Of a stretch of 23,592 nucleotides of DNA, positions 100-22,900 are shown piece after piece; position 1 is the stretch's first letter; each line of letters begins with the position of its first letter. Both the position numbers and the translations under genes were made by a program. This DNA comes from Elusimicrobia bacterium HGW-Elusimicrobia-2 (GTDB lineage Bacteria; CG03), in NCBI GenBank assembly GCA_002841685.1, contig PHAM01000029.1:1-23592 (forward strand). The letters are read 5' to 3'. A model generated the notes under the pieces. The model saw only the letters and a program-made list of their open reading frames with translations, had not been told where the DNA came from and did not search any database.

Positions 100-1182
100 A
101 TAATTAGGGATAATATTGTCTGGGATGGTCTTGACGACAAGGGGAAGATTGTTCCGGCCGGGGATTATAAAGTTAGAGTTACGGCGACCGATTTGGCGGG
201 GAACACTTCGGAAAGCGAGGCAGTGATTAAAGTCAGGTATGATTTTATTGTTGACGATACCCCGCCGACAACGCCGGTTGTTGAGGACGACGGGGATTAT
301 ACAAATTCCACGACGGAGCTTTATTGTCAGTGGCAATCGGTTGACCCATACCCCGAAAGCGAAATAACCGATAACCGCTATCAGCTTTACTCAATAACGC
401 CGCAAGGGCTGGGGGAATGGATTGATACGGGCAGTCATTATCCCGAAGTCAGGTCAGAGGCGCAGGCGGTGATATTGAATGATTTTATGTATATCATCGG
501 CGGGGAGAGATATGAGTCTGACGAGATATTCAGAGTGGATTACAACAAAATAAAGAGTGACGGCTCAATTGATCCTCAAAGCTGGATTCAGGCCGCTGAT
601 TTGCCGGAAGCTATGAGTCAGTTTTCGGCGGTCACATACGGGGGGCGGATTTATCTCATAAGCGGCTATCATACGTCTTCTGTTTATTACACGGAACCTG
701 ATCCGGTAACAGGAGCCATATCCAATTGGATCAAAGGCCCTTCGCTACCGAGGAGTGTGTATTTGAATTCGGCTTTTATCAGTAACGGGAGAATATATAT
801 CACAGGCGGGTGGTATCAGGATTATTACAACGAACCGGAATATAATATTTATTATTCCGCAAAAATCAAAGAAGACGGAAGTCTCGGGGAGTGGCAGATA
901 AGCGAAATAGGCCTTCCTCAGATAGGTTATATCTGTTCGGCAACAGGATTCGGGGGTTATATTTACGCGCTTGAGGATAAGAGAGTTTTTTACAGCAAAA
1001 TAGATGCGGCCAGCGGCGATGTGGAATTCTGGTATGAAGGGCCTCCGCTTCCTGAAAAAGTCTGGGCGCATACGATGTTCGCGACGAGAGATGTTTTATA
1101 TGTGTTCGGGGGCTGGAGCTATGATACGAATGATGTCAGCGACAGAATTTGCTCCTTGACAGACGCTGTAATAAGTGGTTAG
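100..1182 (+). pseudogene. Internal fragment of a Kelch/FlgD-domain giant surface protein
   Basis: The frame opens right after a stop at 97-99 and ends at TAG 1180-1182. The first plausible start (TTG 193) has no ribosome binding site and lies inside a domain, so this is a remnant rather than a complete gene. The encoded peptide begins in the last strands of a FlgD-type Ig-like domain (VWDGLDDKG, DYKV, DLAGN). It continues into a fibronectin-like segment and five Kelch-type repeats (MYIIGG, IYLISG, IYITGG, IYALED, LYVFGG). It matches the giant gene of this window at 13103-14183: bases 121-620 align with 13118-13617 without a gap and differ at only occasional positions, then similarity drops sharply. 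Homology ends on both sides, at about 106 on the left and after a shared 13-mer ending at 1150 on the right. The last 10 codons are unrelated. It could be decay of a paralogue, a silent recombination donor, or an assembly artefact. Confidence 0.75.
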
Positions 1183-1273
1183 ATTTAATTGAAATGAAAA
1201 GAATAAAAATACTCAATTTGCTTTCTTTTCAGAACAACAACATAAACGAACATTTGTTCAATCAAAATAAAAT

Positions 1274-1300
1274 CACGGAGCAACAGCCGTGTAATTTTTT
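1274..1300 (+). terminator. Weak candidate intrinsic terminator
   Basis: CACGG (1274-1278) pairs with CCGTG (1287-1291) over an 8-base loop and is followed by TAATTTTTT. A 5-bp stem is short. It would close off any transcript reading through the gene fragment and isolate the riboswitch-led transcript. Apart from this hairpin I see nothing definable in 1183-1395; a 75-codon frame there overlaps the end of the fragment and shows no family features. Confidence 0.3.
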
Positions 1301-1399
1301 GAGTCAAAACAATGCCCGTGCCCGTCGAGGGGATGGAGAAGAATGCACATATAACGTAGGAGCTGGAGGGTTTTGAAATAAAATTATAAGGTAGAAATA

Positions 1400-1488
1400 G
1401 TTTCTCGATAAGGGCAAATCCGTCGTGAGGCGGAGACGCAAAGCTACGGGACTGATGTAAATTAGTCAGCATGGCCGCCGAAGGAAAC
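1400..1488 (+). ncRNA. Class I cyclic-di-GMP riboswitch aptamer (GEMM-I)
   Basis: The sequence follows the GEMM-I pattern: AGGGCAAA (1411-1418); a 6-bp stem TCCGTC/GGCGGA closed by a GNRA-type loop GTGA (1419-1434); the conserved GACGCAAAGC (1435-1444); then ACGGGACTGA pairing with TTAGTC (1462-1467); and the 3' lobe GTCAGCATGGCCGCCGA (1465-1481). An outer stem GTTTC/GAAAC (1400-1404 with 1484-1488) closes it. The base aligned with Vc2 G20, which contacts the ligand, is G (about 1413). Cyclic GMP-AMP variants carry A there, so c-di-GMP is the expected ligand. It precedes a strong terminator and the protease-adhesin gene pair, so it should gate transcription of both. A promoter just upstream is likely; AATTATAAG near 1383 resembles a -10 box but I could not pair it with a convincing -35. 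Confidence 0.85.
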
Positions 1489-1511
1489 AGCATTGATAAT
1501 TTATCAGTCAG

Positions 1512-1550
1512 CCGGGTTACCGAAAGAAGAATCGGTAACCCGGTTTTTAT
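1512..1550 (+). terminator. Intrinsic terminator in riboswitch expression platform
   Basis: A perfect 12-bp stem, CCGGGTTACCGA (1512-1523) with TCGGTAACCCGG (1532-1543), has an 8-base purine loop and is followed by TTTTTATTT. It lies 24 bases after the aptamer and 37 bases before the first start codon, the position of a transcriptional expression platform. Its 5' arm lies within GTCAGCCGGGTTACCGA (1507-1523), which itself resembles the GEMM-I 3' lobe. The arm could therefore be captured by an alternative aptamer fold. Confidence 0.9.
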
Positions 1551-1586
1551 TTGATGGGGATAATCAAGAGAAAAAATGGAGGATAG

Positions 1587-4500
1587 ATGAGACAGATAAA
1601 TAGATTAATTTTAATCGGAGCGATAACGGGCGTTTTGTTTACCGGCTGCGCGACGACGGAGAAGGTAAAAGTGAAAAGTGAAAAGGCAAAAGCGTCAGAG
1701 GGTGCCGCCAAAACAGAAGATAATATAATCCGTATAGACGGCAAACCATATCGGGTATTGACGATAAAAGATGAGGTCAAGCCGGAAGACATAGAATATG
1801 ATGTGGAAGTACAGTTTGAAGAAGGCGTGAGTAAGGACGGGATAGCTGAAATAATCAAAAAATATCAAGGCGAAATAATTTACACAATTCCGGAACGCAG
1901 ATTGTATATGGTGAAGTTTTCAGACGGAGAAACGGCAGATAAAAAGCAGGGCGAATTAGAAAAAGAAAAAGCAGTACAATATTTTGGGATAAATCCGTTT
2001 AAAGGGATTGCTGTAATATATGCGGAGAAGCGGTTGAGGGTGAAGTTTAAATCAGAAGTTTCAGAAGAGAAGATAAAAGAAACAGTAAAAAAATACGGAG
2101 TGGAAATAGCGGTTAAGAACGAAAAAGGGGTATATGAATTAGAGATAATAAAAAATCAAACGGTTACTGAGACAGTAAATTTATTCAGGAAGGATGATAA
2201 TGTAATCTCTGCGGATCCGGAGTATCTGGGTGAATTGCAGAATAAACCGAATGACAGATATTTTACAGACCAGTGGTATCTTGAGCAGCCAAGTAACATT
2301 GATATAGACATAGAGCAGGCATGGGGGTTAATGGAATCGACGAGAATGGTAAAAGTGGCTGTAGTGGACAGCGGAGTAGATTATAAACACAGTGAAATAA
2401 AAAGGGCACTGATACAAACAACAGGCAGTGAAGATATTTACGGCCACGGGACAAATATAGCGGGCATAATAGGGGCGGAGACAAATAACGGAGAAGGGAT
2501 ATCCGGGATATGCTGGAACGGGAAAAAGATGGTCGTAAAAGTAATACCGATAAAAGTAACAAATGGCAGATATATAAAACTGGAAGATATGATAGAAGGT
2601 TTGGATGCGGTAATTAAAGAAAAGCCGGAAGTAATAAATTTAAGTGTGGTTTTAGATAATAGCGACCGGTTAAAAGCTGTAATAGACAAAGCAATGGAAA
2701 AAGGAATCACAATAATAGCGTCAGCAGGGAACGATGGGATTGAAATAAATGAGAATAATAAGAAATTTCATAGAGTATTCCCGGGAGCGTATGGCGGAGT
2801 AATAAATGTTGGAGCATACAACAGAGAAGGAAAGAGATGGAAGGACAGTAATTACGGCGAAGGAATAGAAATATATGCTCCGGGAGAGGATATTTATACA
2901 ACAGGCCTCAATAATACTTACAACTCCACCGATGGAACATCAATGTCGGCGGCGATAGTAACGGGGATAGTTGCGCTGATGAAGTCGGAGAAGCCAAATC
3001 TGACTACAGAGCAGATAAGAACAATACTGAAAGAGACGAGCAAAAACGGGATGGTGAATGCGTATCAGGCGATAAAGAGAGTGCAAAATATGAAAGGAAA
3101 TAAAGAAACAGAATTATCGCAGCAGTCACAAGAAACAGATGAAGATATTTATATCCCGACTGTGATAGCTCAAGGGAAGTGGGGGGACGGAGAAGGAGAG
3201 TTTGGATATATGGAAACTGAGGTTGTTCCAATAGCGCCAAGGGCAATTACTGTAAGTGACAAAGTTATTTATATTTTAGACCCTGAAAATGGAAGAGTTG
3301 TCAAATATAAAACAGATGGGGAATATTTAGGAGTTGTAGAATTAGAGAAAATAAAAGAGCTTGAAGTTAGGGGAAAGAAATGGAAGATTGATAAAGATGC
3401 TTCTAAAATTGAAATTGCCCCAGGTGTTTATATTGGTGGCGAAGCAGATTTTTTAGAAGTAGATTATAAAGGGAATTTATATTTAAAAGCCTCGGATGGA
3501 TGGGGTATTCAGCGAGTAATAATTTATAATTCTTTTGGAAAGTTCATTATAGAATGGAGTGAGGAAAAAACGGGAGAAGGGGTGTATCGTTTGTTGATTA
3601 ATGATAATGGGGAAGTTTTCTTTACTCAAGTATATAAGAGAAATTCGTATGGAAAATTAATTGAGTTGTCGAATGAACAAAGAAACTTTTTTAAAATATC
3701 TCCCCCTAAAAAAATAATGAAAGTTCATCTAAAAGAAATTCAACCCAAAATAAAAATTTTATGGAAAAAAGAAGAAATGCCTAAAATATCTCCAAAAGCC
3801 AAGTTGAATAGAATTGCGGATAAACTTATTGAAGTTCACAATAAAAAACCCTGGTTAGGTAAAACAATTAAATTACTAATATCAGGAGAAATTTACCAGA
3901 TAGTGTACGACGACGAAAATGTTGATTTAGGCTGGAAAATAATAAAATGGGAAAAACAAAAAAAGGTCAAAGTGCAGGATAAAAATAAAATCGACTGGGC
4001 GTGGAAGTTTGAGTTTCCAGAGAAAATGGAAGATATGATAATAGAAAAAAAGAAAACAAAAACGAAGATATTAAAAAATGGCAAAGAAATAATAATCGAA
4101 AAAGTGGTTAAATATCCTAAAGCAATAATACGGGAAGATGGGTTAAAGTTTTATGATGAAAATGGGAATAATAAAAAAACTGTTGATTTTAAGAATATAT
4201 CTCAGCCGGGCTGGAGAAGCAGAGCAAAAGTATCAGGAAAGTATATCGGAGTTTCGAGTAAAATAGGAGGATATGACAAAGAGGGGAATCGAAGAGCATC
4301 CGCAGGTAACTTTGTAATGATAGACAGCGAAGGAAATATCTTATGGAAATTTAAAAAACACTTAGATTATTTTCATCCTTCTCCTGACGGGAAATATGTT
4401 GTCGGGGTTCCTAATGGTGAGTGGTCGGAAAGTCCGCTATATATTTATAATTCAAAAGGAATTGTTATTAAGGAAATTCAAAAACCAAATGATGGGTATA

Positions 4501-4973
4501 AGATAGATTTTTCAAAAAACGGGGAACTCATTGCTTTAGGTTTAAATGATACCAGAACGCGAAGAGGGTATCTCACTTTGTTGGATAAAAATGGCAACGA
4601 GAAATGGAGAAAGGAAATCACAGAACGCGAAAAGGAAATTGATGGTTTTGGGATAAATAATGTAGCGATATCAAATAACGGAGAGTACATACTGGTTGTG
4701 ACTATTAAGGCACAAATCGAAGAAACCGGAGAAATAAAAGTTATAAAAGGAAGGACAGGTAGAGAAAAGGTCTTAAAAAAACGAAAATATATAGGCACAC
4801 AATATCATTTAGATAGGTTCAATAAAAGTGGAAAACTAATTTGGAGAAAAGAAATTAGCCCCTCAAATTATAAATTCATGTTTTCGGAGGATGACAGCAG
4901 GATAATAGTTAATGATATTAATGGATGCCGTGAATTTCAATTAGAAGGAAAAACAGGAAAAGAAATAGAATGA
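1587..4973 (+). CDS. Subtilisin-family (S8) serine protease lipoprotein
   Basis: 1128 residues. ATG 1587 follows GGAGG (1578-1582) by four bases and starts a lipoprotein signal with lipobox LFTGC (Cys21), so the mature protein should be membrane-anchored and exported. Residues about 68-220 hold two propeptide-like segments (DVEVQFEEGVSK and RLRVKFKSEVSE), like a doubled fervidolysin-type prodomain. The linker PNDRYFTDQWYL is typical just before an S8 domain. The catalytic residues are Asp261 (VVDSGVD), His287 (GHGTNIAG) and Ser452 (DGTSMSAA), with oxyanion Asn382 (SAGNDG), so it should be active. From about residue 525 the protein is no longer protease: one NHL-like segment (NGRVVKYKTDGE), a lysine-rich stretch, then WD40/PQQ-like repeats (GNILWKF, GNEKWRKE, GKLIWRKE) at about 860-1128. 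Base composition becomes AT-rich from about 3240. Its stop overlaps the start of the next gene (ATGA), so the two are translationally coupled. Substrate unknown; the neighbouring giant protein is an obvious candidate for processing. Confidence 0.92.
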   Translation: MRQINRLILIGAITGVLFTGCATTEKVKVKSEKAKASEGAAKTEDNIIRIDGKPYRVLTIKDEVKPEDIEYDVEVQFEEGVSKDGIAEIIKKYQGEIIYTIPERRLYMVKFSDGETADKKQGELEKEKAVQYFGINPFKGIAVIYAEKRLRVKFKSEVSEEKIKETVKKYGVEIAVKNEKGVYELEIIKNQTVTETVNLFRKDDNVISADPEYLGELQNKPNDRYFTDQWYLEQPSNIDIDIEQAWGLMESTRMVKVAVVDSGVDYKHSEIKRALIQTTGSEDIYGHGTNIAGIIGAETNNGEGISGICWNGKKMVVKVIPIKVTNGRYIKLEDMIEGLDAVIKEKPEVINLSVVLDNSDRLKAVIDKAMEKGITIIASAGNDGIEINENNKKFHRVFPGAYGGVINVGAYNREGKRWKDSNYGEGIEIYAPGEDIYTTGLNNTYNSTDGTSMSAAIVTGIVALMKSEKPNLTTEQIRTILKETSKNGMVNAYQAIKRVQNMKGNKETELSQQSQETDEDIYIPTVIAQGKWGDGEGEFGYMETEVVPIAPRAITVSDKVIYILDPENGRVVKYKTDGEYLGVVELEKIKELEVRGKKWKIDKDASKIEIAPGVYIGGEADFLEVDYKGNLYLKASDGWGIQRVIIYNSFGKFIIEWSEEKTGEGVYRLLINDNGEVFFTQVYKRNSYGKLIELSNEQRNFFKISPPKKIMKVHLKEIQPKIKILWKKEEMPKISPKAKLNRIADKLIEVHNKKPWLGKTIKLLISGEIYQIVYDDENVDLGWKIIKWEKQKKVKVQDKNKIDWAWKFEFPEKMEDMIIEKKKTKTKILKNGKEIIIEKVVKYPKAIIREDGLKFYDENGNNKKTVDFKNISQPGWRSRAKVSGKYIGVSSKIGGYDKEGNRRASAGNFVMIDSEGNILWKFKKHLDYFHPSPDGKYVVGVPNGEWSESPLYIYNSKGIVIKEIQKPNDGYKIDFSKNGELIALGLNDTRTRRGYLTLLDKNGNEKWRKEITEREKEIDGFGINNVAISNNGEYILVVTIKAQIEETGEIKVIKGRTGREKVLKKRKYIGTQYHLDRFNKSGKLIWRKEISPSNYKFMFSEDDSRIIVNDINGCREFQLEGKTGKEIE

Positions 4974-7900
4974 GGAGATTAATCTACTGGATTTTTTTAT
5001 TAGCACTAACAATTAATATAGAGATATACGCGTATCAGTGGCCGATTTCGTCGTTCAATAGTCAGCACCAAATTAATGGCGCATTAGGTGAATACAGAGG
5101 AGATCATTTGCATAAAGGAATTGATATTCAAGGAACAGAAGGGACCGATATATATCCAGTTGAAGATGGGAAGGTAATTGAAGTAGGGAATAATTATGTA
5201 AGGATTGAAAGTTATGGAGTAATAAATAAATATTGGCATTTGAAATCAATTCCCAATTTCGTTGAATATTCAAGTTATGTAGTTGCCGGTGTTGATAGAT
5301 TAGGAGTAACTGATTCGGCAAATCATCTACATTTTGAGGATGGAGAGGGTGCGTATAATCCACTGGATTGGATATATCCGTTTAATGATTACGAGTCGCC
5401 AGTTGTTGAAGATATAACTTTTGTAAAAAATGGTACAGAAAACACATATCCGTCAGTTGATGCAACTATGGTGCTGTCAGGTAAGATAGATATAAAAGCA
5501 TGGTCGTATGACCCAAGGATAAATTCGAGTGGATACAGTGCAGGGAAAGGTGTGGGAGTATATAAAATAGGGTATCACATATCAGATATGTCAGACACAA
5601 TAATTCAATCGGCAGTTTATAATTACGAATTTAGTGATGCCATTTACAGTAAGGATGTAAGCTATGTATATGCCGCAGGTTCGAGTTACGACCCAGTAAA
5701 TTTTATTTACTGGGTAACGAATAACGGCAATTCAGATAATTTTTGGAATTCAAGCAGTGTTAATGACGGAAGATATAAAATTGTTGTTAGCGCACAGGAT
5801 ATTGAATATGGATATGGGGCTAATGAAAAAAATGTTATTGTAGACAACAACTCTCCTGTAATTTCTAATCTTGCCCCAGTAAATGGAAGTTATACTGATG
5901 ATGCTACGCCAATAATATCTGCTACCTTATCAGATGTAGGAAGTGGAATTGATGTAAATGCAATTATAATGAAGATTGATGGTGCTGCAGTGTCAGCTAC
6001 GAAATCAGAAACTTCTGTAAATTACACTCCAATGACAAATCTATCAGAGGTGAGTCATAATATTTATGTTGAAGTGAAAGATAGAATTGGAAGGTTGCAG
6101 ACCGCAAGCTGGAGTTTTACTGTAGATACAATTGCCCCTGTAATTTCAAATGTTACCGGAAACACCGCGGGAACAACAGGGGAGAGCGTTGCAATAAGTG
6201 CGGACATTGCCGAGGCAAATCTTGATTATTCAAAGACAAGAATTTATTATACACCGATAGGAGGAAGTGAAACATGGGATTGTTTTAATCCAGCATGGGG
6301 ATATACAATGAACTACAGTAACAATAAAGTCGGGGATATTTCATATTACATCACTGCTGTTGATTTAGCGGGGAATTCAGCGAGGGCACCGGTTACGGGA
6401 ACTTACAAAATTACGGTTACCGACAATGACAAACCTATAATCAGTAATGTGCCTGTGGATTTCATTACGAATCAGAATGTTGATCTAAGATATGAGTGTG
6501 ATATAGAAGATAATGTTACCTGGCCGTGGTGGGATTGCACAATAACAGGGTATGGGCCATTTACAGAAGAGGGGGAATATTTTAACAAGACAATCACAGT
6601 ACAAGACGCTGCGACAAATACGGCAACAGCGACTTTCCCGCATTTTGAAATAGACAAAACACCGCCGGATGTGTTAGATGAAAATAAATTGCAGTTTAAT
6701 GTGAAGGCATTTACCGTGGGGGAACCGGGCGCAGAAATAAATTATATTTCCCCATTGACAAAGTTTTATTTGGAGGAAGATTTTACTGATTTTGACACCA
6801 TATGGTATAAAATAGACACAGAAGAAATTTATCATCAGTATTTTTCAACTGCTCCGATACAATTTATCTCAGGTCATCATACAATCAGTTATTATGCGAA
6901 AGACAAAACAAGGGAAGGGAATTTAACGCCTGTTTTATCTTTTGCAGTAGATGTGGACGGAACGGTTCCAGAAACGGAACTTGTGTCAATTGAAACAAGA
7001 GTTAAGGATGAGAAAACAGGCATTAAATATGACCTTGAGAGTTTCACATACAGAATAACGGCGGAAGACGGGGGATCGGGAGTAAAAGAGATAAGGGTTA
7101 GCGTTGACGGGGGAGCAGAGCAGGTTTATACAAATAGTGGTTTGGTAAATCCCTTTGTAATTTCGGAGCAGTTTCTGCTCGGGAAACAGGAAGGGGAGTA
7201 TACGATAAAATATTATGCGGTTGATAATGTCGGGAATACGGGCGCGGTGAAGACATATACGGCAAAAATACCGCATCTGCCTGAGATAGCGTTTCCGCCT
7301 GATAGTTCAGCGCAGGAAGGGGGCTTGTGGTTTGGATATAATCAGACAGGGCGGGGAGAGGATTACAGGCCATTTAGCTATAGCGTGACAGCAACAGCTG
7401 AGGATTGGATAGGTGATAGTAAACATAACAGGAGGGATGGGAGCGGTGGACAGACACACGGCCCATATTTAGCTCACAGGTTTACTGATAAAATGGTGGG
7501 AACTTGGGATGTAAATTGTTATGCGGGTGTAATGTTTGATGTTACTGTAAGGTATAAAGTTGAAGTAGAGTATTGGGATATTAATTGGCATCATAGTCTT
7601 TTTGACAAAGAAGGCGTATTAGGCGCCGGGGATTGGTTATTTGTGGGGGATGATTCAAAAACATTGTTTGAAAGATTATTCGGTCATACCTGGGGAAACT
7701 TCAAAATAACAATAACAGAAATAATGGGAGACGGAGTGAATTTCTGGACAAATGCGAATGGGGCGACCTATGGTATATGTCCACTTTGCACAAAAGGAGA
7801 CGGAGAGATTACAGTGCATTATGAAACGAAATATCCTTTGACGGGCCATTATCCTGAAGATGAGTTTGTAAGTGAGCGGGATATAGTGAGCGCAAGCAGC

Positions 7901-10900
7901 ACATATACTTCAGAGCAAATCAACATAACATTAACAAGAGGTGACGGGACAGCGCCGCAGGGGAGGATAGAGTATGATTTCCCGAAGATTATATTCCGCT
8001 CTTATCCGGAGGGAGATGCGTCGGGATGGATAGGCAATGTAAATTATTCGGGAAGCACGGTAGATTTTATTGTAAAAGCAACGACAACATTCGGAGGGAA
8101 GTACAATATCGCTAAGAGCAGTTATGATGTTATCAGCGACGCGGATAACCTGAAAAAGATGAAAATATATCTGACCCCCATAGAAAAGTATGGATACGTC
8201 AAAGGATATTCCGTGTATAGAGATAGAATTAACTGGACGGAAAACGGTCCCTATTATCCGGATACGGGGGCAAATAATCCGCAGTATTTATTTGAGTGGG
8301 GAGGAGACGATTCCTTGAACGATTACACAGTCGCTGAGATAAAAACAGACACATTCACAGCGAGAACAAATCCTGATATTAAAACAGGGCGGGTTTATGT
8401 GCCCATAGAGGGCTGGGCGACGTTCAAAGAAGACGGAACAAAAAATTACAAAATAGAGTATTCGACGAATGAGATTGACTGGCAATCAATAAAGATATCA
8501 ACGGATAATGTTCTCGATAAATATTACCTTGCCTTCTGGGATGTGACGGGGCTTAACGGAACGCATTATATAAAATTAATGGTTGACGGCATTGAGGAAG
8601 ACAGAAAAATGGTTCATATAGGACGAGAAGTAGAACCCGCCGGAACATATCCCGGCTCGGAAGCAGACAGCAATCCTGTAACAGATCCATGGGGGAACGT
8701 GGAAGTTGGTTTATGGAGCGACTGGAGTAATGATACAGAGTATCTGACGATAACGCCGATACGAGCCGAAGATTTTTTATTTGAACCGCCGCCCGAGAAT
8801 TACTACAAAGTTTTAGGCGATGTGATTTATGAATTCAAGCCGTCAATGAGTTTTAATGTTCATCCCGTTGTTGGAGGAAGTTACGGCACGCTGACAATGA
8901 GATATGAAGAAGCTGACATTCCCGACGGAACGGCGGAGGATGAATTATCAATTTATCATTTTAATCCCGCAACGGAGGAGTGGGAAGTATTGGATGATTT
9001 AGAAAGAGATACGGCGGCAAACACAATAACAGCGCCGATAGATTGTTTCTCGTATTATTTTATCAGTCCTACGGTTGATATAACGCCGCCGGAGAAACCG
9101 GCGGAATTAACGGCAAATAACAAATCAGTCGCGGACTGGGACGGAGACGGTATATATTTGCTTGACTGGAAGAATCCCGTGGATTTATCGGGAATAAAAG
9201 GGGCGTACCGGAAAACCGGATTAGCTCCGGTAAATAATACGGACGGGATTTTTACGGAATCAAAACCGGCGACTGTAAGAACTTTCCTGCACGGGGCGAA
9301 TCCGCTGTATTTGTGGCTTGAAGACAGGGCGGGGAATACTTCGTATGAGGAGAGAAACTCAATAACACTCAGATATGACGGAACGGCGCCGGAAGTCCCG
9401 GTGGTGGCAAATTCCGTGGAAGAAAATCCCTCCGCGCCCCCGTTGTTAAAAGGAGAGTTTAGTTCATCCGACCCTGAAAGCGGAATAGCGGGATATAAGT
9501 ATGCGGTGGGAAGCGTCGGCGGGGGCTGGCTGGGTGCGTGGGAGATATCATTTTCACTGCCGGAAGGAGTTAATGTTTATCCGCAATGGAACGGATATGC
9601 GTACAGGCTTGAAGGAAAGAGAGTTTATTATGGAGACGCCGACCAAGGGTCGGCAACTACATGGACGGAAACGGTTTCATTGCCGGTTGAAGATGTCATG
9701 CGTTATTCGGTCAGCATTTGTCAGGGATGGATATATGTGATCGGAGGGCTGAAACCCGAAGGTTATTACTATAACCAAAGCGACGAAATATATTACGCAA
9801 AAATAAACACGGACGGTTCAATATCAAACTGGAGTGTTCAAAAACTATTTGAGCCTTTGGCGCTTCACGCTTCGGCAGTTATAGGAAACAGGCTTTACGT
9901 TATCGGCGGAGAGAATGAGAATACTGGAGTAACAAACAAAGTTTATTTCGCGGAGGTTGCTCCTGAAACAGGATTGCTGTCTCAGTGGACGAAAACGATT
10001 TCTTTGCCGGAGCAAAGAGAATGGCATTCCGCGATAGCGGACAACAACAGAATATATGTTATCGGCGGTTATGATAAAAACTGGAATAAAACCGATACGG
10101 TATATTATGCTGAAATAGATCCCGCGAGCGGTCACTGCGGAATCTGGAAGCCGATTACCCCTTTGCCCGAAGGAATAGCGAACCACAAAAGCGCGGTTTC
10201 CGGCGGAAAGATTTATGTAAAGTCGGATAATTTAACTTATTCGGCGGATATCCAGCCGGACGGCAGAGCAGGGGGCTGGGTAAAATCGGATTCGCAAATA
10301 CCATACGACATAGGCCGAGGTTTTTCAACTGTAAAACATAATAACCGCGTTTATTTTATCGGCGGCGAAAATTCAAAACAAGTGTACAAGGCGAAATTAA
10401 CATCATCCGGGCTTACGGAAGGATTTGATATTCAGAGGCAGGAGCCGCTTCCCGACGTGAGATATGACGTAGCGGCTGTTTCGCATCAGGGGAAGATATA
10501 TGTCATAGGCGGGAAAAATTCGGCGGGTGCGCCTCAAAGAAACATTTATTATACGGTTCCGAAACTCGGCAGTGAAATCGCATATTATGACGGGGATATT
10601 GAGTTCTGGAAGGAAACCACCGGTTTATTGCCTTCCGAAAAATATTATCACAAGGCGGTTGTGTGTATGGACTGGATATATGTAATCGGCGGTCAGAACA
10701 ATGAAGTTTACAGGGCAAAGCCGAATCCCGACGGAGATATAACACATTGGAGCGAAGTGGACGATTTGCCTTCCGGGGCGGAGTGTTTTTCGGGAGTCGG
10801 AGTTTATCAAAACTTTATTTACGTCACAGGCGGGTACCCCTCAGGCAACAGGGTTTACAGGGCAGAAGTAAAAGAAGACGGAAGTTTTGAAAACGGCTGG

Positions 10901-13900
10901 GCTCACATAGATTTTCTTCCCGATTACGTCAGATTGAATAAACATTCGTTAGAAACCGTCGGGAACAAAATGTATATTATCGGCGGCGAAGAATCAGGCG
11001 TTATAAAAAAAGATGTGTATTTTAGTGAGCTTGACGAAAGCGGCGGCCTCGGCGAATGGAAAAATACCGCGTCACTTGCTGATGCGGGGAAGAGCGCGGA
11101 ACCGGTTTTTCTTGATGACAAAATATTTCTGTTCGGCGGCGAAACCGGCGCCGGATATACGAGAGATATTGTTTATACGGGCGTTAATCTCGGCGGAGAA
11201 GATTTAACCAGCTGGACAGAGACCGGGGAAAGCGCTGTTTCTCTTGAAGGGCTAAGCCTTATTCCTGGACAGGAGTACTTTTTTCAGGTAAAAGCGCAGA
11301 ACGGGGCGGGCACATGGAGTGAGGTCGGGACAGGGAAAGGGACAAAGATAAAAATACCGGAGCCGGAAGTAATATCGCTGAAGCTTTGCGACAGGGATTC
11401 GGGGTCAAGGGAATTTACAAATGAAAGGATTGTAAATGTTGATATTAAAGCTACTGATTTCGCTATTGAATCTTTGATTGAGGACAATTATTTTTTCACT
11501 GGCGCCTCATGGCAGCCGCTTTACGGCAGGATACCGTTTACATTTGTTACACAGGGAGACGGCGAAAAAACAATTTACTGTCAGGTAAAAGATATTGAAG
11601 GAAAAGTCAGTATAACGAAAACAGATACAATTATTCTGGATACGACTATTCCGGAGGTCATGATTTCAGAGCCCTTAGCGGATTCTTTTGTAAGCGGCGA
11701 AGTGACGGTCAATGTCGCCGGGACAGACGGGGGTTCAGGAATTGATTATATTAAACTGTTCATTGATGAAGCGCTGGTATCTACAATCAGCAGTCGGTCG
11801 GGTTCTTACATTTGGAACACCCTGACGGAACCGGAAGGAGGTCACACAATCTCGGCTATTGCCTATGACAAAGCGGGCAATGTCAGTGAGAAAAAAACAA
11901 TTGCCGTCAAAGTCGACAATGTGCCGTTCAGAATAACAATGGCGGGGGCGGATCCGGCGACATTCAACACTTATTACGGTGAGAAGTCAAACATCTTTTT
12001 TCAGACATCAGAGGAAGGCAAAATCACAATAAACATTGAGGGTCATCCGGTTGTGGGTGATTTTGTTTCAAAGAAGGGGCTGAACTGTTTTGAATGGGAC
12101 GGCGCGGATTTTGAAAACGGAACATATCAGGGTCTTGTCAGCGGGGTGAGTTTGTCAAATCCCGGACAGTCGGACGAGAGGGCGTTTAGAATAAAGATAG
12201 ATACGGCAGTGCCTTATGCTGAGATATTATTCAGTTGGGACACGGGGGATTATTATCCTGATACAAATGAAATCGGCGCGGGAATTATTTATAGAATATC
12301 AGGGTTATTCGGGGTGTATGAGGACAATACGGTTAAAATAAGAAGGGTAATTTCCGGGCACGCTGAGGGTGTGCAGTTATATAATTCGGGCTGGGAGAAT
12401 TTCGTCGCAAACGATAGAGGGAGATGGATAGAATCTCCGCTGGACGAAACGCCGACGCCTGGGATTTTTAAGTTTGAGATACAAACAAGCAGAAAGGAGT
12501 TTCCGTATTTGCCGGGGAATTCCAAAAGCGTGGTAAAAATAATTGGCTGGCTTGATAAACCGTATGAGTGGTTTAATATCAAGAGAGAGAAAATCCCAAC
12601 GGAAAATATTCCTGCCGAGGCGGTTAAAGCTTTATCGTCCGCTGAACCCGCGATGTATATTGAGAGTGATTTATACAAATATACGCCGGAGGATATGACA
12701 TTTACGGCAGAGCATCCATATTGTATTGAATTGCCGTTAGAGGCAGAGCATGCTCTGCCTCTGCTGAAGATTTATCGTTTTGACGATGTTCAAAATGAAT
12801 GGGTCAGACTTGAAAAACAATTTGTGGATGAAGAAAATAATCGGATTGTCGCGGAAGTTAATAAATTAGGAACATTCGCAATTTTGAGCGTTGAGGACAA
12901 TGAAGCTTCTGAAATAAATAATCTAACAGCCGCGCCGAATCCGTTTTCGCCCAACAGAGACGGAACGGATGAAACAACGGTAATCAGCTTTAATTTATCT
13001 GATAACGAATCGGATTATATTCCGTGGACGTCGGTTGAGATTTTCAATCAGAGCGGCGGACTTATCAGGACAATTTTTAAGGATTACAGGCGGGAAACAG
13101 GACAGAATAATATTATCTGGGACGGTCTTGACGATGAGGGTAAGATTGTTCCGGTCGGGGATTATAAAGTTAAAATTACCGCGTCCGATTTGGCGGGAAA
13201 CTCTTCGGAAAGCGAGGCAGTGATTAAAGTCAGGTATGATTACATTGTTGACGATACCCCGCCGACAACGCCTGTTGTTGACGACGACGGGGATTATACA
13301 AACTCAACGGCGGAGCTTTACTGTCAGTGGCAATCAATTGACCCGTATCCCGAAAGCGGAATAACGGATAACCGCTATCAGCTTTACTCAATAACGCCGC
13401 AAGGGCTGGGGGAATGGATTGATACGGGCAGTCATTATCCCGAAGTCAGGCGAGAGGCGCAGGCGGTGATACTGAATGATTTTATGTATATCATCGGCGG
13501 GGAAAGGTATGAGGGTGACGAAATATTCAGAGTGGATTACAATAAAATAAAGAGTGACGGCTCAATTGATCCTCAAAGCTGGATTCAGACCGCTGATTTG
13601 CCGGAGGCCATGAGCAGATTTTCGGCTCTGAGTTATAAAGGATATATTTATTTAATCGGCGGGTATTATACCAAAGGGGTTTTTTATACAAAGCCCGACC
13701 CTGTTACCGGACAAATTAGTAATTGGACGGCCACGTCTTCGCTTCCTTTATCTGAAAAACTTTATGAAAACTCAGCGTTTATTTATAACAGCAGGATTTA
13801 TGTCACAGGGGGTTTTTACACAGAAGAGGAATATCTGTACGGGTGGCCGGTGACTGAGACATATTCTGAGACTCGCATTTATTTTTCTGCCCCAATCGGC

Positions 13901-16900
13901 GAGGATGGAACTATTGGCTGTTGGGGAATAAGCGGAGTCAGCTTACAGGAAGGAGGGCAGTATCGTTATGCGGCAGGTTTTGGGGGCAAGATTTATGCAA
14001 TAGAAGATGAAAAGGTTTCTTATGCTTCAATAGATCCCGTAAGTGGTGATATTGAAGCGCCTTGGCATGCCGGACCTGTTCTACCTGAAAAGTTGTGGGC
14101 CCCGGTGGTGTTTGCTTATCGTGATGTGCTGTATGTTTTTGGGGGGGATTCATCCACCGCCGATGAGCTGAGCGACAGAATTTATTACGCCCGTATAAAC
14201 GGCGATGGAAGTTTGGGCGCATGGAATACGGATACTTTGCCGGGGAGCAGATATTTTCACGATGTTGTTGTAAGAGGAAAAGATATATACCTTATTGACG
14301 GAATTAAGCCAGGGAGCGACCATGCCACAGATAGAACAATATACAGGGCGCCGATTGCGGAAGATATAAACGTGGTAAAATCGTGGACTTCCACGGGTTT
14401 GGAACAGCAGGTTCTAATTAACAATCTTTCGCTTGAAGCGGGCAAAAGATATTATTTTGATGTTCGGACGACAAACGGCGGGAATTTAACAAGCGCTGTA
14501 GGAGCCAGCGACGGTATTTTGGCTGGGATGCCTGTTCCGCCGCGGGTTGAAAATCTTGTTGTGAGTAACCCCGGATGCGGTGAAACTCTAATTTTGAACT
14601 GGGCGGCTGTTTCGGGGGATGTTACCGGCTATAATATTTATCAGAGCACGGCGGCTACAGCGGGATACATTAAAATAAACACGCAGACGGTTGCGGATAA
14701 TTCTTATACCGTGGAAGCGCTGAAAGACGGAACGGCATATTTTTACAGAGTCGCCGCGTTTGATTCAAGGCTCAGGGAAGGGGCGAAATCTCTTCCGGCA
14801 AGCGGTGTGCCCGCCGATGAACTGCCGCCGTCGGCGGCGGCTGATTTTCAGGCACTCGCTTCCGATGAAACATCAGTTACTTTTTGCTGGACAGCGACGG
14901 GAGACAACGGGATTTCCGGAGATATTACCGGAGGCAAATACTGGATTAAATATTCGGCTATTGAGCCGATAACCACTGATGCCGAGTGGAACAGAGCGCC
15001 GTACGAACTTATATCGGCAACGGATACGCCGACCGGACAGATAGAAACCGTCGCAGTGCAGGGTTTAACGGCAAATCAAATTTATTATTTCGCTTTGCGT
15101 TTGTGCGATGAGGCGGGAAACTGGTCGGCTGTTTCTAATTGTGTTTCAGCCAAGCCGGGGGTGGATTATTCGTCTCCGGTGAGCAGTCTTGAATTTGCCG
15201 GAGGAAAACAACATCCGGCAGCGGACGGTTATTATGCTTCTGTGGACACAAAGTACAAAATTACCGCCCTTGACCCTTATATTGAGTATGTTCCTTCGGG
15301 TGTTGATTTTACAGAATACAGGATTGACGGCGGCGGTTGGCAGGTTTATACAGAACCTTTTGGCCTGGCAGAGGGCGCTCACACAATTGAATATTACGGT
15401 CAGGACAAAAGAGGAAACAAAGAGGAACCCGCGAAAACGGAAAAAATCTATGTTGACAATACCGTGCCGGAGGCGCAGTTGGTAATAGCCGAACCCAAAT
15501 ATGAAATGGCGGACAAAGTTTATATTACCGCGCAGACTCCTTTGCTAATTTCCGCCATTGACCCTGTTATTTCAGGAGCCGCGTCAGGGATTTCAAGGGC
15601 TCAATATACGGTTGATAAAGTAAACTGGCAGCCTTATGAGGAACCGTTTTATATAACGGATGACGGAACTTATGAAATTAACTTTTCCGCGGAAGACAAT
15701 GTAGGGAACAAGAGCAGCGTCCAAACAAGCAAGGAAATTGTTGTTGATACTATTCCGCCGGCTTTCAGCGGGATTACCGTTTCTTCAAAAATAGAAGCAG
15801 AGGATGAAAATAATATTTTAGACGGTTGTTCCGGAAGTTTGGCGGGACAGGGAATAATATTGGGTTCATCCAATGGTGAAAATATTGCTTTGGATAAAGG
15901 GTATGTTTATAGTATTGAACCCGACGTATGTTACGTTGGTATAGCAGAAATATTACTCACAGACGGGGCTACTGGAAGAAATGTTGGGTGGGAAGTCGGA
16001 GGAAATGATTCCATTGCTGTGGATATAGTTGTAGATTTGAGCGCTATTTTTAAAACAAATAAAATAAGGTGTAATAGCACGAGTATTTATTATGTTCCCG
16101 ATAGAATGGAAGTATATACGAGTTTGGATAATGTGAATTTTGATTATGCGGGTTATAGTGAAGAAACCGCTGCTGCCACTTGGATGGAGATTGAATTTCC
16201 TGCTCGAGAAGCAAGGTATGTAAAATTTAGATTAAAGCAAAGTGGTCATGGTAAACCTTCATGGTGGTTATTTGTCAGCGAATTGGAGATTTATGAAGCG
16301 ATTGGACTTTTAGAAGGAACTGTTGAAACGGCATGGAAAAATATTCATCCTGATAGTCAATTGACTAATTTTTCGCCCATTCAACAACTCAATCAGGGAA
16401 ACATAACGTATCAATATTCTACTGATGGGCAAATATGGAGCGATGTCAGCGCTTTATCTCAGGCAGACACTTCCGCCGGTAAAATAAAATTTATAGCGGG
16501 ATTAAGCCGCTCTGCCCCGGAATCGGTCAGTCCGTATTTGGATTGTATTCAATTTGATATGGGGGACGGTATTTTTGTTTCACCGGAAACGGCAGGTCTG
16601 GAGCCAGTCACTATTAAATTTATGACAAGCGAAACTTTGCGGGAAGAGCCTGTTGTAAAAGTCGGCGAACACTATGCCGGATTTGCTGATTTTAGCGACG
16701 GGATATACACTTACAATTATATTGTAACGCCGCTGGACCTGCCCGGCGAATATACAATAACGGTTGAAGGAACGGACATTGCGGGAAATAACGGCATCGA
16801 TACCACGGGCAGAATTGATATTGACTGGATAGACGATGTCCCGCCGGTAAGCAGTGTTGTTTTAGGCGAGCCCGCAGATGGTGATATTATCGGAATGAAT

Positions 16901-19900
16901 ACGCCGGTTGAAATTGAGGCGAGCGACGATATTAGCGGAGTTAAAGAAATAAAATACAGGGTTAACTCAGAATGGAAAACTTATACCGGTTCATTTACGG
17001 TTAGTTCCGCAAATTCACCGCGGACAATGACGGTACCTGAAATTAACTGGAGTCGGTTAGAATTACCGCCGGAACCAAATTCGCTGTTTGTCTGCAGTGA
17101 AAATAAAATTATCAAATTTAATATGTTTGGTGAGAAAGAACTTGAAGTGACAATACCGGGGGGCACTCCTTCAAATTTAACTTATGATTCTGAAACAAAA
17201 TACATATATATCGCTGATACGATAAACAACAGGATAGCGAGAACAGTTGATGGCAGTAATTGGGAATTTCAATATGCTCATAATGTAGGTTGGGCTCCAA
17301 CGAGTGCAACCATTGATAAATACAAGAATTTATATGTTCCTTCGTATTATACAATATGGAAGTTTGAATTTGGCCAATATATCGGCTATGGAAACACGCT
17401 TATTGATTATCTTTTGTATACGAATACTGATATTGACTATGATCCGAGTGAGGATATGTTATATATTGCAGAAAGTTATTATGGAAGAATTTATAAAGCT
17501 AAGGCGGATGGTTCGGAATATGTTCAGGGGTATGGGCGTGGCGGTGCTACGGGAATTGATTTCAATTCTACTGATAAGAGTATATATCTTGCTGATAATG
17601 AATGGAACACGATTATAAGAACTAACATAGATGGAAGCATAAGGGAAAGTATAGGAGCGTATGGTAGTGGAAATGGGAAATTCAAACACCCATGGGATGT
17701 AGCAATTGATGAACAGACGGATATTCTTTATGTGTCAGATACGGGGAACAACAGGTTAGTCAAAACCAAAATGGACGGGAGTGTATGGGAAGTATTTACT
17801 GAGGTAACTTCTCCAAAAGGAATATTTTTTTCTATTCCGGAACCAAAATATATGGATGTAGCGCAAGTTATAGATGCCGGTGAAAGTGTTGGCTGGAGAT
17901 ACATGTCGTGGGAAACTTCAGACAGCGGCGCATATCTGAAAACCCGCACAGGAAATACCCCTCAGCCTGATGAAACATGGTCTGATTGGTCGGATAATTT
18001 TAATGCGAGCGCCGGGACAAGAATAGTATCTTCTCCGGGGAGATATTTGCAGATTGCGGCAGGTATTCAGGACGCGGGAGATATCTTGCCTGAAATAACA
18101 AATATACGATTAGATGTCGTTCCGGTGGTGGAGATATCTCATTACAGTGTTGATTTGAGAGGTAATATTGAGCTGGCGAAGCAAACTTTAGTTTATCTTG
18201 ATAATCTTGCTCCCGGTTCTCCAAATGAGTTAGTTTATGAGATATTAAACAATAATACGGTCAGTATTGTCTGGCAATTAAATTTGGAGAATGATTTCGA
18301 CGGGTATAATCTCTATCGTAACGGGCAGAAGTTGAATGAAAGTTGTTTTTCAGGAGTAGCGTATATAGATGAAGATCTTTCTCTTGGGGAATACACATAT
18401 CAGTTAACTGCGGTTGATTTGTTTGGCAATGAAAGTGAGCCGTCGCAAATCAGCGTGAGTATTGCGGACACGGTTCCTCCGGCTACTGCGTTTATTCCGA
18501 GCAGGGATTTTTATATTAAGGATGGAAAAAATTACGCTTCGGATGAGTATAACTATGGTTTTCAGGCGACAGATGCTTTTACAGGAGTTGACCATATTGA
18601 GGTAAATATTGATGAGCAGGGATATATTGTTTATACGGATTCAATAGTTTTCACGACTACCGGCATTCACACCATAAAATACAGAGCTGTGGATAATGCG
18701 GAAAACCGGGAGACCGAGAAATCAATTACAATTTATGTTGATGCAAATAAACCGCAAACAACCGCTTTTTTTACCGGGACATATTTTGAAACTGAAGGGA
18801 AGTTCTATATTATAGAACAAACACAAATATCTTTTGTCGTCGCAGACCCTTATATTAATGGGGTGAGTTCCGGTTTAGATTTCACGGAGTACAGGACTAA
18901 CGGTGGGGCGTGGCAGGCATATACCGCTCCATTTACAGTTTCTGATAATACCAATCTCCTTGAATTCAGAAGCACGGATAATGTCGGGAATGAAGAGGTA
19001 GTTAAAAACATTTCAATCGGCTTTGACACTCTGCCGCCCGTAACAAGCGTTAAGGTGTTCGGCCCGAGCCGACAGGATGAGAAATTATGGATTTCGTCGC
19101 TTACGCCGGTTGGTTTTGAAACTCAAGACAATACAAAAGTTGATTATACGAAGTTCAAAATTGGTTATACGGATTGGGATATTTACCAAAGTGAATTTAA
19201 CTTAGCGCCTGAAATAAAGAAAGCGGAATATAAGGATGCGGGGGAGGCTGCATGGCAAAGCGGCGAATTAAATGATTTGAAAATAGATGCTTTTGGTAAT
19301 GTTGAGTTAAAGGAATATCCAAGTTATTTGTTTGTTGCTCAATCCGGCAAGATTGTAAAAATTAGTATATGTAATGGCATTGAGATTGAAAGAGAAACAT
19401 TGGATTCCCTCTATGTGCCGAGCATACCGTATAATGCACTGTCTTATGTAGAAGGTATTTCACATGATCCGGTGAATGACTTTGTTTATCTTACAAACAC
19501 CTATTGTGATGGGATAATAAAGACAAAAATGGATGGTACGGAAATAACAACTTTCGGGGAATTAGGTTCTGGTATTAACCGGTTTAGAGATCCTTATGGA
19601 ATTTTTTATGATCCAAATTCCGAATATCTTTATATAGCTGATACAGGAAATCATCGAATAGTTAAAATGAAAACAGATGGTTCTGATTGGCAAACTATTG
19701 GTGGATTTAATAGCCCAAGAGATGTCTATTATGATTCATCTACCGACTTTGTTTACATTGCCGATTATAATAACAATAGAATAGTTAAGACAAAGATGGA
19801 TGGTTCGGAATGGACATCTCTAGATGGTTTGGGAAATCCTGCGGGTGTATATTACGACAGTTTTTCTGATTACATTTACGTAACGGAATATTTGCGGTGT

Positions 19901-22900
19901 CGTATTGTAAAAGTAAAGATGAATGGACAAGGGAAGGAAATTTTTGGCAGTCATGGTTCAGGGCAAGGGCAATTTAATAATCCGCAAGATGTTTATTATG
20001 ATTCGAATGAAGATGTGATATATGTAGCAGATACTTATAATTCTCGCGTAGTTAAAACAAATATGACAGGTAGCGTTTGGCAAGTTAGTAGTGGTTTGAG
20101 ATACCCACGGGGGGTGTGCTATGAATCGGCTGAAATTGAAGGTTTTATTTCTAATGGAGAATTTGTTTCGCGCATTGTTGATGCGGGGGATATAGTCGAA
20201 TGGGGCTTAATAGAATGGCAATCACAAACGCCTTTTGGCACGACAATTTCTCTTTGTACCCGAACAGGAAATACTCTTCTCCCTGATACGACTTGGTCGG
20301 ATTGGTCGCCGCTATATACACACAGCGGTAGTCAAATTAGTTCGCCGGCGGGAAGGTTCATCCAATACAAAGCTGTTTTCGCAACTAATGACAATAGCGT
20401 TACGCCATCCTTAAATGAGGTAACATTGAAAATTAAAGAGGGCGTTAAAGACGAATTTGTGGTTTCCTATTACAGTACAGACATTTTTGGAAATCAGGAA
20501 GAAGTAAAATCAACGGTTGTTAAAGTGGACAGCATTGTACCGGAGGCGCCTCAACAAATCGCTTATGAAGTGGCTGACATGACAACGGTTAATTTCAGTT
20601 GGCAGGCAAATACAGAAACTGACCTTGCGGGATATTATATCTATCGTGACGGGGACAAACTCAATGATACTCCTTTGTGTTTTCCCGTTTATCAGGAGAC
20701 GAAAGCAATTGCGGGAATCTCACAGCTATATTGGGTAACGGCGCTTGATAAAGTAGGCAATGAGAGCGCGCCGTCTCAAAAGGTTAATGTGATAACGCTT
20801 CCCGATGAGACAGCCCCCGTGTCAACAATCACGGTAAGCGGATATAGTTATATTTCTCCGGATGGGAACAATTATGCGGCGTTGGCATCTTCATTTTCTA
20901 TAACCGCCGCGGATGATTTATCGGGCGTGGATTATATTGAATATAAGATAGGCGACGGCGATATCCAGCGGTATCAGGAACAGCTTCTCGTCGTAGGCGA
21001 GGGAGAATATTTCATAAGTTATCGCGCTGTTGACAGAGCCGGAAATCAGGAGAGTTTCAGCGAATACAGAATAATTATTGACAGCGCCGCGCCTTTCTCA
21101 ATTTTAACCGCTTCCCGCGGGTTATATAATGACGGGGAAAAAGATTATGCTAATTCCGATGTCCATTTTATTTTAAGCAGTACGGATAATTTAAGCGGAG
21201 TGAAAGATATATTTGTCGCCGTGAAAGATGATTTCCAAACTTATTCGTCGTCGTTTACGCTGAGCGACGAAGGGGATTATCAGATCAAAATTTATGCTAA
21301 GGATAATGTTAATAATTCGGAGGAAGTAAAAACATACAATATCTGCATAGATACCACGCCGCCGGCGTTGAGTGAAATACTTATTTTACCGGAAAATAGT
21401 TCTTTAGGTATTGTAGATATTTATTTTCAGGTTTCCGAACCGCTTGTTAAAAATCCAGGGATAACAATAAATGGAAATCCCGCAGAATTTATTTCTTACG
21501 CATCGCCATTTCATTATCAATACGAGGTAACAGGGTTTGATACTGAGGGCCCGGCAGAAGTGATAGTATCTGTTGAGGATTTCGCAGGGAATAAAGCCGT
21601 AGATACCTCAGGGGAACTGTTGATTGATTACACCCCGCCGGATATAGCCGTTTACAGCCCGCTGGGCGGCGACAGATATATTACTGCCGGAAACAAGATT
21701 ATCATAGCTTATGATGTGAGCGATAATTTTGATTCCTCGCCTGATAGCAGAGCATATTTAACAAATTTGACGGAAGGAACAACCATGGCTGTTTTTGCAT
21801 ATCAGATTATTAACCCCGGGGATATTAGTCCGGGCCAATGGACAATGACAATTGAGGCATGCGACAGCGCCGGGAATAATATTTCGACAACGACGGCGGT
21901 TTTTGAAGTGTCCCATGATGTGTTGCCGCCGAGGACACGCCTCAGTTTGGGTGAGCCGCGTTATTGGCAGGATCCCGTATTTATTACGGATGGTATGGTG
22001 ATTACTTTAACTGCTGATGATGATTTGGTTGAGGCGGGAGACGGCATTGGTATTGGAGTGGAAAAAATTCAGTGGCGAATAGACGAAGGCGACTGGTTAA
22101 TCTATGAAGCGGAGCAAACTCTATCGTTCGCGGAAGGCGAACACAGAATTGAATATTACAGTGTTGACGGCGCGGGCAACACGGAGCAGATAAAATATTT
22201 TGATGTTGTAATTGATAGCAGCGCTCCTGTAAGCCGGATAAAAATTGGCGAGCCGGAGTTATTGTTTGAGGGGAAAACTTTTGTAACGGCGAAAACGCCT
22301 TTTGTAATCGGAAGCGATGATAATTTGAGCGGAACAAAGTCAATAGAATATCGTTTAAACTATCTGCCTTTTCAGCCGTATGCAGGCTCGTTTAGTCTCG
22401 GAGAAAACAAAGCGGAGCAAGAGAGAGATAATTTTAATCAGCTTGAACTTTCAGATAATTGGCGCTGGCAAAGAGGTAACACCGAAAACCGTTCACTGAC
22501 GGAAGAAAGGGAAAGTCTCATCATATACACGGCGAACGGAAGCCTCCAGGGCGCGGAGAACAGTCAGGAAAATATACTTCTCAGGAATATGCCCGTTTAC
22601 GGCAACATGGTCGTGGAGACGAAGTCGGAATTTAATCCTGAATATGAAGGGCAGGAGGCGGGGATTTACATTTATCAGAATGACGACAATTATATCAAGC
22701 TGGTGAAGACGGAGAGAGATAATAAAAATTATGTGGCCGCCGCAATGGAGAAAAACGGACAATACAGTGAAAGCGTAAGCATTGAGGAATTTTACGAAAA
22801 AGATATTTATCTGAGAATCAGGAGAGAAGAAACGAATTACCGTTTATATTATTCCACCAACGGGTTGAGCTGGTTTAAGACCGGGGAATTTGACGCAGCC

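Follow-up and report, generated by a model that had tools for sequence, protein, structure and literature searches.

Our analysis of a contig from Elusimicrobia bacterium HGW-Elusimicrobia-2 (PHAM01000029.1, here C69; the window is this whole contig, 23,592 bases) points to a class I riboswitch for cyclic di-GMP (c-di-GMP-I, or GEMM-I) in which one 5′ half of the aptamer appears to be shared by two alternative 3′ halves, located upstream of genes for a subtilisin-like protease (subtilase) and a giant repeat protein. The shared-5′-half layout is a departure from ordinary GEMM-I switches and suggests an unusual on/off decision for surface genes. We propose tentatively, at somewhat less than an even chance, that duplication of half an aptamer created a strand-exchange switch, maybe sign-inverting or band-pass, that gates giant surface proteins in a little-known phylum; to our knowledge the phylum has no cultivated member. 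The leader consists of the following elements.

1404–1452, + strand: aptamer 5′ half (RF03167 model columns 1–49, comprising the 5′ strand of P1, P2 with a GUGA tetraloop and the 5′ strand of P3; from cmscan alignments)
1465–1483, + strand: proximal 3′ half, completing an aptamer at 1404–1483 and leaving the terminator free (3′-half score 13.9)
1507–1525, + strand: distal 3′ half, completing an aptamer at 1404–1525 (64.9 bits) and overlapping the terminator 5′ arm (3′-half score 24.3)
1510–1550, + strand: intrinsic terminator, a 14-pair stem (1510–1545) followed by a U-rich tail, with the distal 3′ half as its 5′ arm
1578–1582, + strand: Shine-Dalgarno-like GGAGG of the subtilase gene, identified from sequence

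The sole Rfam match in the window (cmscan) is c-di-GMP-I-GGC (RF03167) at 1404–1525 on the + strand, with 64.9 bits against a gathering threshold of 59 (E = 1.7e-13), and the covariance-model score thus assigns the leader to the GEMM-I class. The match carries a 43-nucleotide insertion in P3 that contains a second aptamer 3′ half, and region 1380–1490 scanned alone gives a complete aptamer at 1404–1483 (59.2 bits, gathering threshold 59). One 5′ half, two 3′ halves and a distal half that doubles as terminator arm are therefore all found in the window. The contact nucleotides are of the c-di-GMP type, with G at column 10 and C at column 75 in both 3′ halves (columns that we take to be equivalent to G20 and C92 of Vc2), and c-di-GMP is the predicted ligand. 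An ordinary tandem riboswitch was considered and rejected, because there is a single RF03167 match and both the proximal and the distal readings use 1404–1452; the leader shows no sign of a second 5′ half. A first-pass annotation of this DNA had placed a GEMM-I aptamer and terminator before the subtilase gene, and the RF03167 match and the stem at 1510–1545 bear it out; its description of a single switch is right in that one leader precedes both genes, but incomplete, since the second 3′ half had been overlooked.

Folding energies distinguish the two pairings. Region 1508–1550 has a folding energy of −25 kcal/mol (z = −6.9). When the window leader is modelled as constrained ensembles, forming the distal aptamer takes 3.4 kcal/mol and forming the proximal one 6.1 kcal/mol at the stage when the distal copy has been made but the terminator has not; in the full-length leader with terminator, the distal cost rises to 16.1 kcal/mol and the proximal cost is still 6.1. 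Only the distal fold would therefore exclude the terminator, and the contrast suggests that the two pairings correspond to read-through (distal) and termination (proximal). The separation is clear in the window and at two further loci, L091 and L092 (our own numbers with L, G and C denote loci, genomes and contigs; G000 is the genome of the window).

The duplicated half recurs. A search pattern combining one 5′ core with two 3′ halves matched in 6 of 17 genomes (the window's own and 16 relatives) and nowhere in the reversed control. A strict form of the pattern, run over 84,980 species genomes, returned seven stretches, five labelled Elusimicrobia bacterium, bacterium or Candidatus Sumerlaeota (the window's phylum) and two labelled Omnitrophota; these counts are a minimum, given how strict the pattern is and that the searched set may lack records of the window's own genome. 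The layout is found at six distinct loci of the window's phylum, spread over four families; the same-genus genomes G001 and G003, which carry an equivalent leader (the G003 copy lies at a contig edge), are counted as one. A score matrix for 3′ halves, derived from 80 GEMM loci in other phyla, places all six phylum loci and the two Omnitrophota-labelled ones over its threshold. The 80 controls themselves yielded a second 3′ half at two loci, both borderline, against approximately 2.3 expected (background 0.028 per 200 nucleotides); the controls thus show no excess of second 3′ halves over chance. Nine control aptamers longer than 110 nucleotides contain no second 3′ half, just long P3 loops. 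A relaxed pattern over 386 relatives gave no new loci, with a proximal half set too narrowly, so that the window itself was missed. One further control locus, L154 (G252), which precedes a subtilase gene and a gene for a protein resembling PorV, looked similar by eye; its two copies reach only 4.5 and 8.1, and the locus was left out of the count. No paper on overlapping riboswitch aptamers, or on shared-5′-half or partly duplicated riboswitches, was found in the open literature and the few subscription journals covered.

In the mechanism that we infer, from ligand binding and switch sign to co-transcription and export, pairing of the 5′ half with the proximal copy would free the distal copy to act as the terminator 5′ arm (OFF), and pairing with the distal copy would consume that arm and let polymerase read into the subtilase–giant gene operon (ON). 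c-di-GMP would act mainly by stabilizing the distal, canonical aptamer, and at low ligand the weaker proximal copy would compete for the 5′ half and bring back termination. The operon would yield a cell-envelope subtilase and a giant Kelch/Ig surface protein, the latter probably exported by outer-membrane machinery of the PorV/SprA type. At every one of the six phylum loci the distal copy scores as more canonical (24.3–26.6, against 13.9–25.3 for the proximal copy) and keeps C at column 75, which is modest evidence for ON at the window locus. For that locus, we regard a transcription-termination, strand-exchange riboswitch that c-di-GMP turns on through the distal half as an evenly balanced proposition.

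Several observations weigh on the other side. The sequence does not fix the sign, and the proximal copy too keeps C at column 75. At four of the six phylum loci (the window, G001 and both G009 loci) P1 pairing, with its extension, is stronger for the proximal than for the distal copy, as an OFF switch would have it. At both Omnitrophota-labelled loci the proximal copy is more canonical than the distal, an argument for OFF at those loci; the proximal copy of G014 is degenerate. The energy separation is small or mixed at several other loci. In addition, at equilibrium the terminator (−25 kcal/mol) prevails, which requires control to be kinetic, and all of these values are secondary-structure energies, with neither the aptamer's tertiary contacts nor the ligand taken into account.

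It is accordingly worth considering the opposite sign, in which c-di-GMP binds the aptamer made with the proximal half, the distal copy is freed and the terminator forms (OFF), while in unliganded RNA the distal copy displaces the proximal and serves as antiterminator; duplication would then have converted an ON layout to an OFF layout. The stronger proximal P1 extension and the Omnitrophota-labelled loci fit this arrangement, as does the constant cost of the proximal fold before and after terminator synthesis, by which proximal aptamer and terminator can coexist; OFF switches with such coexistence are known, for example Cd1 (PMC9262584). However, the distal copy, the better one at the six phylum loci, keeps the full ligand-binding consensus, beyond what an antiterminator needs, and a ligand-free antiterminator would have to withstand the −25 kcal/mol terminator. 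We consider the inverted sign possible, as a minority view.

A simpler alternative is an ordinary ON switch in which the distal half alone works and the proximal copy is a functionless remnant of a tandem aptamer or of a local duplication. A distal half by itself gives the usual ON layout, with aptamer and terminator mutually exclusive as in the pilM type (PMC9262584), and the degenerate copy at G014 and three broken P3 pairs in the proximal copy of the window fit this reading. Yet an aptamer with the proximal copy still passes the gathering threshold, the copy is kept at six distinct loci in four families and at two further loci, which is unexpected for a relic, and a second 5′ half was not traced. 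A remnant is on balance unlikely, and we return below to a switch in which both halves take part.

The genes and other features of the window are as follows.

1587–4973, + strand: subtilase (S8) lipoprotein of 1128 amino acids (Peptidase_S8, E = 2.6e-44; Fervidolysin_NPro-like prodomain)
4970–23590, + strand: giant M23-headed repeat protein, open at the contig end, at least 6207 amino acids
5108–5338, + strand: M23 domain of the giant protein (E = 4.4e-8; HxxxD at H48/D52, HxH at H119/H121)
110–1182, + strand: truncated paralogue fragment (FlgD/Kelch) preceding the leader and matching giant-gene positions 13107–13626 at 92% identity over 521 bp

The subtilase open reading frame is intact, with a lipobox (LFTGC) ending at C21. 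Alignment to subtilisin finds D261, H287, N382 and S452 in place, so that the Pfam match is joined by the Asp-His-Ser triad and the oxyanion Asn of the S8 family; the C-terminal half has no Pfam match and resembles beta-propeller repeats. The start of the giant protein is signal-peptide-like, and its M23 domain is followed by Kelch, Big, fn3, FlgD_ig, NHL and GH43_C2/ConA-like domains. Its ATG at 4970 overlaps the subtilase stop codon (TGA, 4971–4973) in a common ATGA. Promoter-like sites in 1180–5100 number 11, against 12.1 in shuffled sequence, and no internal promoter that would split the operon stands out; one transcript for the two genes is plausible. A lipoprotein subtilase behind the aptamer and terminator, with a stop codon overlapping the start of the giant gene, is thus as the first-pass annotation had described. 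Upstream of the leader, the piece at 110–1182 may be a duplication, a gene conversion or an assembly join. Before it, positions 1–110 fold into an extended hairpin (AGGCCTCCTTTT...AAAAGGAGGCCT) that could mark the end of an element or be a product of the assembly.

Elsewhere, leaders of the shared-5′-half type precede varied cargo. The G001 leader is followed by genes for a 356-amino-acid protein, a 1947-amino-acid Kelch/Ig protein and a UPF0164/PorV-like protein; the G008 leader by a 1248-amino-acid protein and one that is PorV-like by sequence; and the G011 leader by a 461-amino-acid protein and a similar PorV-like one. Behind the leader of L091 (Omnitrophota-labelled) lies a 1339-amino-acid subtilase, and behind that of L092 a protein with a pilin-like N-terminus. 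Subtilases directly behind GEMM-I are also found in G042, G267, G252, G115 and G253. Among the 80 control loci there are four GEMM-led subtilases, three of them independent, where a few parts per thousand would be expected; the expectation is a rough estimate from the few S8 matches per genome in relatives rather than a formal test. No paper on c-di-GMP riboswitches with subtilisin-like proteases and adhesins was found in the same literature. Three successive GEMM-I aptamers lie within approximately 1.8 kb at L189 (1571–8377, G115:C1) and at L190 (G253:C1); the first leads a subtilase gene and the third a gene for a repeat surface-type protein (1670 and 1897 amino acids, respectively). The aptamer before the subtilase gene at L141 (G267:C125) has A rather than G at column 10, a change associated with cGAMP sensing.

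These surveys bear on the idea that the subtilase and the giant protein are a dedicated protease–substrate pair tuned jointly by one switch. The two genes are ATGA-coupled behind one leader, and G115 has, on one strand, a subtilase gene with its own GEMM leader and, downstream, a gene for a large repeat protein with another, an order repeated in G253. Against this, no ortholog pair was found in the genus or in the relatives searched with both proteins: the subtilase has no ortholog in the genus (the best same-genus match is approximately 31% identical), and with the M23 head as query, an M23-headed giant behind a subtilase was found in none of 40 relatives. The same-genus leader, moreover, serves other cargo, and GEMM-I subtilases of other lineages stand without such a partner where the next genes are readable. 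A dedicated pair is improbable, and that the protease might act on the giant protein is purely inferred. The conserved pair that had been expected from the window was therefore not recovered; what does recur of the order riboswitch, S8 gene, giant gene is its first part, subtilases behind GEMM-I in other lineages, without this giant. The conserved theme would appear to be a c-di-GMP switch with secreted proteins, rather than the protease and giant protein of the window.

The remainder of the genome is consistent with c-di-GMP signalling and with export to the cell surface. Five to six GGDEF domains make c-di-GMP production plausible. A 1716-amino-acid SprA-like open reading frame (G000:C93) matches in several collinear pieces, below the curated cut-off, and SprA-like open reading frames are present in 15 of the 16 genomes of the window's phylum (G000–G015); a C25 (PorU/gingipain-type) peptidase is encoded above cut-off in a 644-amino-acid open reading frame (G000:C18). 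UPF0164/PorV-like proteins occur in related operons. The visible part of the giant protein has internal FlgD_ig domains and a weak CHU_C match, and its C-terminus lies beyond the contig. A route resembling the type IX secretion system (T9SS) is plausible for the giant protein on these sequence grounds.

The second GEMM of the genome, L004 (G000:C77, 6694–8286), precedes a gene for a UPF0164/PorV-like TPR protein, and this other GEMM-I leader of the phylum is also seen at L066 (G003:C172), L064, L068, L073, L076 and L078. In the same-genus G003, where the stretch analysed extends further along the operon, the PorV-like TPR protein is followed by a 703-amino-acid protein (FliF_C/FliG_M/FliG_C/TPR), coiled-coil-like open reading frames, MotA and MotB. 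Flagellin was not found in any of the 17 genomes, and the operon possibly encodes a c-di-GMP-gated rotary motor without a flagellar filament.

If both 3′ halves of the window leader work, it would be a natural riboswitch made by duplicating half its aptamer, and such duplication would offer a route to gain or reverse the sign of a switch. For the window's phylum, the leaders further suggest that c-di-GMP controls giant surface proteins and subtilases and, separately, an operon with FliG-like and MotAB genes.

Several known systems share parts of this arrangement. SprB-type giant gliding adhesins are secreted by the T9SS; the window likewise encodes a giant surface protein with repeats, its genome has SprA-like and C25 proteins, and PorV-like genes follow large proteins in related operons. 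The likeness is one of gene content, and the C-terminus of the giant protein, where a sorting domain would be sited, is beyond the contig. In the LapA/LapG/LapD system, c-di-GMP is tied to a giant surface protein and its protease, LapG being a periplasmic cysteine protease under post-translational control, next to an RTX/T1SS adhesin. The window, in contrast, has a subtilase lipoprotein of family S8 under a riboswitch, and the visible part of its giant protein has no RTX-type match.

In C. difficile, the protease PPEP-1 and its adhesin substrates are under separate c-di-GMP riboswitches of opposite sign (PMC11477304). The comparison with PPEP-1/CD2831 drawn by the first-pass annotation is sound as an analogy, in that c-di-GMP riboswitches stand over a secreted protease and surface proteins (PMC11477304), but the layouts differ: a metalloprotease with separate, oppositely acting switches there, and a subtilase with two genes behind one leader here, the other GEMM of the genome being on contig C77. 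Tandem c-di-GMP-I riboswitches, surveyed as 347 doublets and 12 triplets, resemble the window in that more than one aptamer can be drawn per leader; tandems have separate aptamers, whereas the window shares one 5′ half (PMC9481103). Because that survey treated overlapping hits as single riboswitches (PMC9481103), shared-5′-half leaders could have been passed over.

The closest parallels concern the switching itself, and pilM (ON) and Cd1 (OFF) show that both logics exist in the GEMM-I class (PMC9262584). In the leader of Geobacter pilM, an ON switch for cGAMP, the aptamer 3′ strand joins the terminator as in the window, and bound aptamer and terminator are mutually exclusive (PMC9262584); the window leader has an additional, upstream 3′ half that competes for the same 5′ half, and its predicted ligand is c-di-GMP (G at column 10). 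In C. difficile Cd1, a class I OFF switch, aptamer and terminator can coexist, as the proximal aptamer and the terminator can in the window, and a switching strand competes with the aptamer (PMC9262584; PMC11477304). The Cd1 antiterminator is formed by the aptamer A strand with T and H, whereas the window leader would pair its 5′ half with a copy of the whole 3′ half.

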